Assembly (NCBI RefSeq): GCF_002943565.1 | Contig: NZ_PJCH01000005.1 | Span: 186,001 to 250,000 of the forward strand | Reading direction: 5' to 3' | DNA: 64,000 nt | Source: Hyphococcus luteus | GTDB taxonomy: Bacteria; Pseudomonadota; Alphaproteobacteria; Caulobacterales; Parvularculaceae | Shown: positions 43,449 to 48,449 of the stretch, in pieces | How the letters are laid out: every line of letters starts with the position of its first letter | How positions within the stretch are numbered: the first letter of the stretch is position 1 | The notes under the pieces: model-generated | The model's database searches: none | What the model saw: only the letters and a program-made list of their open reading frames with translations | What the model was told of the DNA's origin: nothing | Position numbers and translations under genes: made by a program

Positions 43449-43522
43449 TGGAGCGGGTGAAGGGAATCGAACCCTCGTCGTAAGCTTGGGAAGCTTCTGC
43501 TCTGCCATTGAGCTACACCCGC
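43449..43522 (-). tRNA. tRNA-Gly (anticodon CCC)
   Basis: On the reverse strand gcgggtg (5' end at 43522) pairs with cacccgc (3' end), D-arm gctc/gagc, anticodon loop ttCCCaa, T-arm with ttcgatt loop, discriminator T and encoded CCA (43451-43449). Position 27/43 is a G-A mismatch at the end of the anticodon stem. Confidence 0.96.
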
Positions 43523-44853: not shown

Positions 44854-45798
44854 ATGGACGGCGAAGCAGGCGTTAAAACCGCCGCAAAATTTCAGCACAA
44901 GGAACGAACGGCGGCGGGCGAGCTCCGCGCCGAAGTGCCTCTCGCCCGGCTCGAGACGCTGTGGATCAACACCGGCACGCTGTGCAATGTCGAATGCGCG
45001 CATTGCTATATCAAATCTTCGCCAACCAATGACCGGCTTGTTTATCTGAGCGCTGAGGAAGCCGCGCCGTTTCTCGACGAAGCCCGCAGAATGGGCGCGC
45101 GGGAAATCGGCTTTACCGGCGGCGAGCCGTTTTTGAACCCGGACATGATCGCGATGACCCAAGGCGCGCTGACGCGCGGCTTCAATGTGCTCATCCTCAC
45201 CAACGCCATGCGCCCGATGATGCGCCCGAAGGTGCAGGAAGGCCTCCTGTCGCTGCGCGCGCGCTTCCCGCATCTGCTGACCTTGCGCGTCAGCCTCGAT
45301 CATTACAGCGCCGAAGGCCATGACGCCGAACGGGGCGAAGGCGCGTTCGAGGCGTCCATGACGGGGCTTGGATGGCTGCAGGACAACGGCTTCTCCTTCA
45401 CCATCGCCGGACGCGGCCTGACCGGCGAACGCGAAGCCGAATTGCGCTCCGGCTTCGCGGCGCTTTTCGAAGCGCGGGGCGTTCCCCTCGATGCGCACGA
45501 TCCGGCGCAGCTTGTAATCTTTCCGGAAATGGATGCGGCCCGCGACGTTCCCGAGATCACTGCGGCCTGCTGGTCGATCCTCGGCAAGGATCAGGCCGAC
45601 ATGATGTGCGCAACCTCGCGCATGCTCGTAAAGCGCAAGGGCGCTGAAAGGCCCGCCGTCCTCTCCTGCACGCTCCTGCCTTATGACGAGCAATTCGAAA
45701 TGGGAAAAAGCCTCGCCGAAGCGGCGAAACCGGTAAAACTCAATCATCCCTTCTGCGCGCAGTTCTGCGTCCTTGGCGGCGCAAGCTGTTCGGGGTAG
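44854..45798 (+). CDS. Radical SAM protein with C-terminal cysteine cluster
   Basis: A 314-residue radical SAM protein. The [4Fe-4S] motif CNVECAHC uses Cys44, Cys48 and Cys51; FTGGEPFLNPDMI is the SAM-binding GGE block. The C-terminal third holds several more Cys (AACWSIL, MMCATS, LSCTLL, FCAQFCVLGGASC), enough for an auxiliary cluster as in SPASM/twitch proteins. The substrate is unknown; no peptide precursor gene is next to it. The DUF938 methyltransferase starts 11 bp after its stop, so the two are an operon. Confidence 0.88.
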   Translation: MDGEAGVKTAAKFQHKERTAAGELRAEVPLARLETLWINTGTLCNVECAHCYIKSSPTNDRLVYLSAEEAAPFLDEARRMGAREIGFTGGEPFLNPDMIAMTQGALTRGFNVLILTNAMRPMMRPKVQEGLLSLRARFPHLLTLRVSLDHYSAEGHDAERGEGAFEASMTGLGWLQDNGFSFTIAGRGLTGEREAELRSGFAALFEARGVPLDAHDPAQLVIFPEMDAARDVPEITAACWSILGKDQADMMCATSRMLVKRKGAERPAVLSCTLLPYDEQFEMGKSLAEAAKPVKLNHPFCAQFCVLGGASCSG

Positions 45799-45809
45799 AA
45801 GCCGCGCTC

Positions 45810-46466
45810 ATGACAAAGACGCCGAAAGAAACCGCCCTCGAAAATCGCGCCCATGACGGCGCCAAGCTGTTTTCGCCCTCGACCGAGCGCAATCGCGACG
45901 CGATCCGCGACGTGTTTTTGAAAACCATGCCGCAGAAGGGGCGCATCCTCGAAATCGGCGGCGGCACGGGCGAGCATGCGGTTCATCTCGCGCGCGCCCT
46001 GCCGGATGCGGAATGGCGGACCGGCGACCCAGACGAAAAAGCGCGAGCCTCCATCGCCGCCTGGATCGCGGACGCCGGTCTTTCGAACCTCTCAGGGCCT
46101 CACGCCATCGACGTCACGCAAGCCGATTGGGGCGTTGAGGACCGCGCGCCCTTCGCCGGAATCGTTTCCATCAACATGATCCACATTGCGCCTTTTGCGG
46201 CTGCGAAGGGATTGTTCGCAGGCGCGGGACGGCTTCTCGCCCCCGGCGGAAAACTGTTTCTTTACGGACCGTTCTCCAGAAAAGGCGCACACACGGCGCC
46301 GTCGAACGAGGCCTTTGACGCCAGCTTGAAGGCGCGCGACCCGCGCTGGGGCGTGCGCGATCTGGAACGGGACATCCTCCCTTTGGCGCAGGAAAACGGG
46401 CTCAGTCTCGACGCGGTTGTGGAAATGCCGGCGAATAATTTCTCCGTCGTCTTCACAAAAGACTGA
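45810..46466 (+). CDS. DUF938 family SAM-dependent methyltransferase-like protein
   Basis: A 218-residue DUF938 protein: SPSTERNRDAIRDVFLKTMP, the SAM loop ILEIGGGTGEHAVHLARALP (residues 45-64), FAGIVSINMIHIAPF and LYGPFSRKGAHTAPSNEAFD. The family is a class I methyltransferase fold of unknown substrate. It follows the radical SAM gene directly. A bulged stem-loop (tcttttccccacaa with ttgtggaaaaga, 46491-46530) lies just after its stop. Confidence 0.9.
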   Translation: MTKTPKETALENRAHDGAKLFSPSTERNRDAIRDVFLKTMPQKGRILEIGGGTGEHAVHLARALPDAEWRTGDPDEKARASIAAWIADAGLSNLSGPHAIDVTQADWGVEDRAPFAGIVSINMIHIAPFAAAKGLFAGAGRLLAPGGKLFLYGPFSRKGAHTAPSNEAFDASLKARDPRWGVRDLERDILPLAQENGLSLDAVVEMPANNFSVVFTKD

Positions 46467-46539
46467 CAAGCATTTGAAAAATCAGCGCTGTCTTTTCCCC
46501 ACAAGTTCAGGAGAAAGTTTGTGGAAAAGAATGAGTCGA

Positions 46540-47088
46540 CCGATGTCAATAAATCGGTATCCTGATCATGTTTCGCGGTTCTACAGACAATTCGCAGTGT
46601 TTGCCTAGCGGCGGGTTGGACGAGCTAACGGAATGATGCGCGAGGCCGGATGCAACGCTCAGATGCAGTCCGGCGAACGAAACAAAGGCGAGTTTCATGC
46701 GCATGGCCGGACCTGAGCGGTCCGCTCCCGCCGGAAAGCCGAAAGGCGGTTCGGGAAACGGGAGATCGGCATCGCCGTGGGCAGCGGGCAAGCTGCTGAT
46801 CGGCGCGCTTCGGTGACGCCCTTGCGGAGGTTAACGCTGACGTATGGGAAAAGCCGGTGCGGATCTGAAGGACGCAGGACGTCGGACATGGCGAAACGCA
46901 AATGCCGGCAGCCACGACCTGAGTTTTGCGCCCGCAAGGTCTAGCGGTTGAGAGCGATACGGCAACGGACCCGCTCAACAGTCGCAAACTGGAGACCATC
47001 TGAATTCTCACTGGATTGGGGTGTGCTCCGGATTTCCGCGAAAGCGGGAAGAAAGGGCGTCGCTTAAGCGACGCCCTTTTTCTTTACT
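46540..47088 (+). ncRNA. Candidate large structured non-coding RNA (possibly HEARO/omega-RNA-like)
   Basis: No credible gene lies in 46467-47165. The + strand folds by eye into a chain of helices: gccggatgca with tgca-g-tccggc (46645-46654/46664-46674) closed by atgcgc/gcgcat (46636-46641/46699-46704); cggacc/ggtccg (46708-46713/46719-46724); ctcccg/cgggag (46725-46730/46759-46764) around gcc-GAAA-ggc; cgccg..gcagc/gctgc..cggcg (46773-46805); gacc..ttgc/gcaa..ggtc (46916-46941); gttgag/ctcaac (46947-46952/46974-46979); ccgc-GAAA-gcgg (47036-47047). It ends in a strong terminator. The 5' end is uncertain. It lacks RNase P and tmRNA signatures; HEARO/omega-RNA is a guess from overall look. Confidence 0.55.
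47052..47084 (+). terminator. Strong rho-independent terminator of the candidate ncRNA
   Basis: aaagggcgtcgctt (47052-47065) and aagcgacgcccttt (47066-47079) are perfect 14-bp reverse complements, followed by ttttctttactcc. No coding gene on the + strand ends within 580 bp upstream, so it terminates a non-coding transcript. Confidence 0.9.
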
Positions 47089-47165: not shown

Positions 47166-48449
47166 ATGGCCCAGACTATCCGCGTTCTCTCGGCGCTCCT
47201 GATCGCCGCCTTCCTCCTGATCTCCGGCGCCGGCCTGCAGGGGACGCTCCTGTCCGTGCGCGGCAATATCGAGGGCTTTTCCCTCGTCCTTCTCGGCTCC
47301 TTGATGTCGGCCTATTTCACGGGCTTCACCATCGGCTGCCAGTTCGCGCCGCATATGGTGAAGCGGGTGGGCCATATCCGCAGCTTCACCGCCCTCGCCT
47401 CCATCGCCTCGGCGGCGGCCCTCGCCCACGCTTTGGCGGTGAACCCGGTCTTCTGGATCCTGTTGAGGGTCATCGCCGGCTTCTGCCTCGCCGGCCTTTA
47501 TATGATCATCGAAAGCTGGATCAACGAAGGCGCGACCAATGAGCGGCGCGGGCGGGTTCTCGCCGTCTATCGAGTCGTCGACCTCAGCGCCGGCACGGTC
47601 GGCCAGGCGCTCCTGGCCACAGCCGATCCGGCCGACTTTTATCTCTTCGCCCTCGTCTCGATCCTGATTTCCGTCGCCCTGGTGCCCGTGGCGCTGACCA
47701 CGACGACGCAGCCGACGCCGATCACGTCGGCGGATATCGATCTGAAAAAACTATTCCGCATCTCCCCGCTGGCGGCGTTCGGCTGCCTCAGCGTCGGCGC
47801 GGCGAACGGCGCTTACTGGGCCGTCGGCGCCGTCTATGTGCAGAAACTGGGTTATGACATTCAGACCGTTGCGGCCTTCATGACCACAGTGGTTGTTTCC
47901 GGCGCCCTGTCGCAATGGCCGCTCGGTCACATATCCGACCTTTTCGATCGGCGCATCCTGATCGTCGCCATCGCGGCGCTCAGTTCCGCTGCAGGCGTTC
48001 TGCTCGCCCTCACCGGCGGACAGTCCGAGTTCATGCTGCTGGCCGGCGGCGCCGCTTTCGGCTTCACGGCGATGCCGATCTTCGGCCTCGCCGTCGCCCA
48101 CGCCAATGATCGGGCGGACCCCCATGAATATGTCACCCTCGCCGCAGGCCTTTTGCTGCTCTACGGCGCGGGCGCCATTGTCGGCCCCTTCGTCGCGCCG
48201 ATCATCATGCAGAACGCCGGCCCGCAGGCGCTCTTCTTTTATACCTCAAGCGTCTATGCGGCGCTGACGCTTTTCGGTCTCTACCGCATGCGGCGCAGCG
48301 ACGCGACGCCGCCGGAAGAGCGCGAGGCCTATGTCTCAGTACCGCGCACCTCGCCCGCCGTCTTTGAAATCGACCCGCGCGGCGAACACGAAGAAGACGA
48401 GAGCGCGGACGAAGCCGCTGAAGATGACGCGAAGGGCGAAACCGCCTGA
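47166..48449 (+). CDS. MFS transporter (YcaD-like)
   Basis: A 427-residue major facilitator with 12 helices: SLMSAYFTGFTIGCQFAPHMVKRVGHIR near residue 40, then IAGFCLAGLYMIIESWINEGATNERRGRVLAVYR (in two parts), the pattern of the YcaD/YfkF group. The substrate is unknown. The C-terminus is a long acidic tail (EHEEDESADEAAEDDAKGE). It starts 80 bp after the ncRNA terminator and ends flush against the convergent dcd gene. Confidence 0.9.
   Translation: MAQTIRVLSALLIAAFLLISGAGLQGTLLSVRGNIEGFSLVLLGSLMSAYFTGFTIGCQFAPHMVKRVGHIRSFTALASIASAAALAHALAVNPVFWILLRVIAGFCLAGLYMIIESWINEGATNERRGRVLAVYRVVDLSAGTVGQALLATADPADFYLFALVSILISVALVPVALTTTTQPTPITSADIDLKKLFRISPLAAFGCLSVGAANGAYWAVGAVYVQKLGYDIQTVAAFMTTVVVSGALSQWPLGHISDLFDRRILIVAIAALSSAAGVLLALTGGQSEFMLLAGGAAFGFTAMPIFGLAVAHANDRADPHEYVTLAAGLLLLYGAGAIVGPFVAPIIMQNAGPQALFFYTSSVYAALTLFGLYRMRRSDATPPEEREAYVSVPRTSPAVFEIDPRGEHEEDESADEAAEDDAKGETA

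Follow-up and report, generated by a model that had tools for sequence, protein, structure and literature searches.

A large structured noncoding RNA of Hyphococcus and one sister genus with an invariant hairpin motif

Introduction

The window analysed here, a stretch of 64,000 nt of the Hyphococcus luteus genome, contains a gap between two + strand genes, a DUF938 methyltransferase gene on the 5′ side (45810-46466) and an MFS gene on the 3′ side (47166-48449; Pfam). An initial annotation, made from the letters of the sequence, had read positions 46540-47088 of this gap as a large noncoding RNA and had guessed that it might be a HEARO/omega-RNA. Is there a gene in this gap and, if so, what kind of molecule does it specify? 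The universal machines aside, few classes of bacterial noncoding RNA are this large and complex. OLE, ROOL, GOLLD and HEARO, once they were studied, proved to be unusual particles or ribonucleoproteins (RNPs).

Results and Discussion

We are highly confident that positions 46568-47083 (+ strand) form a single-copy gene for a structured noncoding RNA of about 515 nt, on the strength of its homologues, a 117-pair consensus structure and its folding energy. The locus is present once in the 4.9-Mb host genome. The initial reading of the gap as free of any credible open reading frame (ORF) held when ORFs were compared across homologues: none is conserved between the DUF938 and MFS genes. The longest ORFs vary in place and strand from one homologue to another, their lengths lie within the range of shuffled sequences for nearly all homologues, and most indels have lengths not divisible by three. 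A hidden ORF was therefore discarded as a candidate. The gene very probably codes for no protein and specifies a large and intricately folded RNA. The strong folding noted at the outset was also reproduced: the fold energy of the locus strand beat that of all 100 shuffles (z = -3.9), and positions 46568-47083 of the + strand folded at -231.6 kcal/mol versus -204.1 kcal/mol for shuffles (z = -4.2; 0 of 100 as good).

A sigma-70-like promoter (46535-46563, + strand), conserved in sequence and spacing in the alignment, precedes the RNA. It consists of a -35 element, GTCGAC, at 46535-46540 (TTCGAC in many relatives), a 17-nt spacer and a -10 element, TATCCT, at 46558-46563, and TTCGAC-like and TATCCT-like hexamers are kept 17-18 nt apart 5′ of the RNA homologues. 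A strict scan for the E. coli consensus made no promoter call at this region. From its position we infer a start site at about 46568-46570. The extent proposed initially was thus right for the RNA itself, at about 46568-47083, and too long at its 5′ end, where 46540-46567 is promoter-like sequence. The 3′ border is a hairpin followed by T5 (47051-47083, hairpin 47051-47080, + strand), 98.3% paired, with compensatory changes across homologues and three pairs changed on both sides. A 14-bp terminator stem with a T-run had been described here; the hairpin and the T5 stand, and the 14 pairs are reached only by counting the TTAA core as paired, the model having 13. This hairpin was absent from the output of a simple terminator scan of the sequence, which the overlap between T-run and stem may explain.

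How widely is this RNA distributed? When 149 related genomes were searched at the nucleotide level, 26 gave matches, and the re-aligned homologues are full-length and 60-92% identical. In all, homologues occur in 25 of the 28 genomes of the genus, our own included (Marinicaulis, which NCBI now places under Hyphococcus, Parvularculaceae), and in a single sister-genus genome (G031). Two covariance models, R1 for the middle part of the RNA and R2 for the 3′ hairpins, each recovered the same 25 genomes and G031. They gave no match in the other 57 genera among 398 relatives, an absence bounded in distant relatives by the strict filters of many-genome searches, which may lose weak matches. The distribution was the same when R1 was rerun on a sample of the order. 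An exact scan of 84,980 species for an invariant 18-mer of the RNA found 21 contigs, assigned to Marinicaulis, Parvularculaceae, Parvularcula or Alphaproteobacteria, and the plasmid and phage collections searched gave no match. All three genomes of the genus without a match are drafts; two are without a clear copy of the methyltransferase gene, and the third has a partial methyltransferase gene with a different sequence behind it. As far as sampled, the RNA is a family of its own, limited to Hyphococcus/Marinicaulis and one sister genus.

The gene order Ysc84 - radical SAM - DUF938 - RNA is constant wherever the contig reaches. In H. luteus the downstream neighbours are the MFS gene and a dCTP deaminase gene. 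Across species the gene 3′ of the RNA varies, being an MFS gene in four examined contigs and others elsewhere. The RNA and its terminator persist whatever gene follows. The RNA is thus no leader of the following gene, and a cis-regulatory role for the MFS gene, from which the terminator separates it, was rejected. A functional tie to the upstream genes is likewise unsupported by co-occurrence: other genera possess the DUF938 gene, usually accompanied by the radical SAM gene, yet lack the RNA, and most relatives lacking the RNA keep the pair. The RNA therefore either was acquired in this stable neighbourhood or disappeared from it, and its presence does not track these genes.

The covariation among homologues that the initial annotation had named as a check of its proposal is present. 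RNAalifold on 23 aligned sequences gave a consensus of 117 pairs, with 95.0% of cells standard and 61 pairs changed on both sides, counts that lean towards the model since the structure comes from the same alignment and the two are not independent. Paired cells reached 86.3% in shuffles (0 of 500 as high as the model) and 37-44% in slid registers, and both-sided changes numbered 264 cells versus 84 in shuffles. Two helices, P3 and P5, were missed by the RNAalifold alignment; both surfaced in single-sequence folds, where they form a three-way junction with P4 that is seen in the unconstrained folds of about half the homologues. A third covariance model, R3, built from five sequences and the three-way-junction structure, matched 25 of the 25 loci searched, G002 weakly. 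The refitted 5′ part (junction and P6) has 28 pairs, 93.4% of cells standard, 25 pairs changed on both sides and 0 of 500 shuffles as high, figures that again favour the structure, the alignment having been fitted to R3. An all-pairs covariation test with a tree-based null returned one pair at E < 0.05, at low power, with 24 sequences and P3 and P5 misplaced in the alignment.

All helices lie on the + strand. The 5′ domain (46569-46635), which shows compensatory changes, has a closing stem P1 (46569-46573 × 46631-46635), P1b (46579-46581 × 46622-46624) and P2 (46588-46598 × 46608-46618), with a conserved CCUAG. In the three-way junction (46635-46704), to which the R3 matches, pair changes and single folds all point, P3 (46635-46641 × 46699-46704) encloses P4 (46645-46654 × 46664-46674) and P5 (46679-46683 × 46692-46696), the latter with the loop AAAGGYRA. 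Five homologues (L021, L022, L023, L025 and L026) carry a lineage-specific expansion of the RNA, an insertion of about 30 nt in P5 that seems to fold into an additional helix. Hairpin P6 (46708-46724) has both-sided changes in six of its six pairs, and its loop, UGAGC, is complementary to GCUCA of the P4 loop (about 46657-46661). This loop-loop pairing is kept in 98.3% of cells versus 1-58% in slid registers; the sole both-sided change, to GUUCA/UGAAC, is found in L013. Judged by this complementarity, the P4 and P6 loops are a probable kissing loop, within or between molecules.

Further 3′, the consensus model places P7 (46725-46763; 46725-46728 × 46760-46763) with a GAAA-capped inner hairpin, P8/P8b (46773-46805) with the conserved AUCGCCG...CGGCGCGC, and the P10 group (46861-46943), made up of P10 (46861-46864 × 46940-46943), P10b (46873-46878 × 46925-46930) and P10c (46903-46906 × 46911-46914). 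A candidate second pseudoknot, between 46766-46767 in the P7-P8 linker and the P8b loop, was picked out by eye from C/U versus G/A changes in three sequences. Covariation marks P9 (46806-46860; 46806-46814 × 46853-46860, with an inner P9c at 46829-46831 × 46836-46838), in which four of seven pairs changed on both sides and 99.4% are paired. The covarying stem-loop P11 (46946-46986) has both-sided changes at 46961-46966 in 14 sequences; it is probably dispensable, since the whole stem-loop is missing from the sister-genus homologue L027. P13 (47035-47048), also from the consensus model, is GAAA-capped in H. luteus. The two GAAA tetraloops of the initial annotation are indeed there, at 46737-46746 (GCC-GAAA-GGC) and 47037-47046 (CGC-GAAA-GCG).

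P12 (46989-47031, + strand) is the last large hairpin. Its outer stem shows compensatory changes, and it carries an invariant motif of 17-19 nt, UUCUCACUGGAUUGGGG(UG), at about 47005-47023, with an apex that is partly unpaired in the model. The motif, UUCUCACUGGAUUGGGGUG, is identical in the 23 aligned sequences bar one inserted A in L027, where a sequencing error is possible, and G002 keeps its first 17 of 19 nt. Mean column identity in the same alignment is 65%, and a motif frozen against that background implies a sequence-specific contact.

That a mobile-element remnant or a chance structure, and no gene, occupies the locus is very improbable. GC-rich sequence generally folds well, and the range of one genus and one sister genome is narrow; the compensatory changes, the frozen motif and the conservation of borders and neighbourhood over many species nevertheless argue for a gene.

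Could the contact made by P12 be with another RNA? The RNA might be a trans-encoded antisense regulator, in which the P12 loop pairs with at least one mRNA and the remainder serves as a stabilising frame. A frozen motif whose apex is partly unpaired would suit base-pairing to an RNA target equally well, and a free-standing gene with a rho-independent-type terminator is what many bacterial small RNAs have. However, the H. luteus genome holds no other site similar or complementary to the 19-mer within three mismatches, and the RNA is far larger than usual antisense RNAs and has far more covarying helices. We regard this explanation as unlikely, though one to be kept in mind. Far less can be said for a CsrA-sequestering RNA of the RsmY/RsmZ/CsrB kind. 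RsmY was the best sub-threshold Rfam match (27.1 bits, with the gathering score at 57, and partly terminator-driven), ACUGGAU in the P12 motif resembles a CsrA site, and GGA motifs and a terminator are shared with RsmY/CsrB. The Hyphococcus RNA is, however, far longer and has a strongly covarying fold, and a CsrA gene is missing from its own genome; of the 26 other genomes of the genus that were searched, 25 likewise lack one. Since CsrA is absent, this reading was rejected as having only a minute chance of being right.

Comparison with known classes gave no match to the locus at Rfam gathering scores, and at E ≤ 10 HEARO, OLE, GOLLD, ROOL and group II introns were unlisted for it. RNase P RNA, alpha tmRNA and 6S RNA are each located elsewhere in the genome, over the cut-off, and a group II intron was set aside, as no Rfam intron model matches at E ≤ 10 and the locus has no intron-encoded ORF. 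The initial exclusion of RNase P RNA, tmRNA and group II introns was therefore sound. The HEARO/omega-RNA guess, on the other hand, did not survive. Such a guide RNA of IscB/IsrB, possibly an orphan, was suggested by the similar size class among large structured bacterial RNAs and by orphan copies said to be known. Apart from the unmatched HEARO covariance model, there is no adjoining nuclease ORF, and the Hyphococcus RNA is a single copy with a conserved terminator in a fixed neighbourhood, in contrast to scattered copies; this identity has next to no chance of being correct.

The closest likeness in kind is to OLE, ROOL and GOLLD, with which the RNA shares a large, multi-helix, covarying fold, conserved loop-loop contacts and a function that is unsettled. 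These RNAs are 577 nt (OLE), 659 nt (ROOL) and often over 800 nt (GOLLD) in size (PMC12286853, PMC9723947), compared to about 515 nt here. The Hyphococcus RNA differs in matching none of their Rfam models and in having its own fold and a fixed chromosomal place in an alphaproteobacterial genus. ROOL and GOLLD reside in phages and prophages, whereas the invariant 18-mer has no exact match in viral contigs. With their models unmatched and the distribution different, we do not file it as a member of any of the three. It could still be an RNA-only structure or a ribozyme, either through self-assembly as in these RNAs, with the P4-P6 contact made between molecules, or through a catalytic centre in P12. 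Its size, its many helices and the conserved loop-loop complementarity would fit, and ornate RNAs form homo-oligomers via kissing loops (PMC12286853). Yet the complementarity is equally possible within one molecule and the match to OLE, ROOL or GOLLD is lacking, so that we hold this to be unlikely. The titles and abstracts retrieved from open-licence papers on Parvularcula noncoding RNA or Marinicaulis RNA contain no description of the RNA. It is an undescribed RNA family, in no Rfam family, within the known broad kind of large structured bacterial noncoding RNAs.

The initial call of a large noncoding RNA is thus supported by conservation and covariation, by a promoter-like region and a terminator that are both conserved, and by the finding that no ORF is. 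Comparison of sequences supports this identity together with an architecture of promoter-like region, multi-helix fold, P12 motif and terminator; from the same sequence evidence we infer a partner and a function. A free-standing noncoding RNA family working in trans as a scaffold, with P12 as the partner contact, is the best overall explanation, and we give it slightly better than even chances. Because it has a promoter-like region and a terminator of its own, and because the downstream gene is not constant, the RNA would act in trans, forming a stable scaffold. Its shape would be set by the covarying helices together with the contact between the P4 and P6 loops, giving a rigid frame on which the P12 motif may serve as a sequence-specific contact or active site for the partner. 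That partner would most likely be a protein, forming an RNP in which the RNA may organise the activity or location of the protein. The specific proposal of a trans-acting scaffold or RNP presenting an invariant hairpin to a partner stands at about even chances.

An additional conserved element lies 5′ of the promoter. It is an inverted pair, TTTTCC(C/A)CA ... TGTGGAAAA (46487-46528, + strand), aligned 5′ of all homologues. The proximal half (46520-46528, TGTGGAAAA) is the reverse complement of the DnaA-box-like 9-mer TTTTCCACA and is intact in 21 of 22 aligned homologues, plus G002 and G031; a second, inverted copy of the 9-mer lies further 5′. TTWTCCACA has a single match in the window, at this element, and the genome as a whole has just one such inverted pair. 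An origin of replication is unlikely here, since 64 kb of sequence contain only a single strict 9-mer and a GC-skew switch is lacking. The inverted pair is conserved across the genus, and in many species the -35 region of the RNA is overlapped by a GANTC site of the CcrM type, which suggests putative cell-cycle control. A lineage-specific RNA-only machine, working by loop-loop assembly or by catalysis centred on P12 and under cell-cycle control via the DnaA-box-like element, seems quite improbable.

The RNA is a single-copy gene in nearly the whole of a genus with named, cultured species, and its frozen motif marks where a partner should be sought. Retention in the genus, cultured species and the motif make its function directly testable. 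Broad comparative screens, the case suggests, can overlook large RNA families whose host range is narrow.

Some minor features of the neighbourhood were noted. The radical SAM and DUF938 methyltransferase genes are closely spaced (44854-46466), and most of the family's genera that were examined retain this pairing. A tRNA-Gly (CCC) gene lies at 43452-43522 (- strand), between a PAS-GGDEF-EAL gene and a Ysc84-domain gene. In one further genome (G035, locus L125), the site behind the DUF938 gene carries two near-identical direct repeats of about 100 bases, whose ends are inverted (GAGCCTAAAG ... CAGGCTC).
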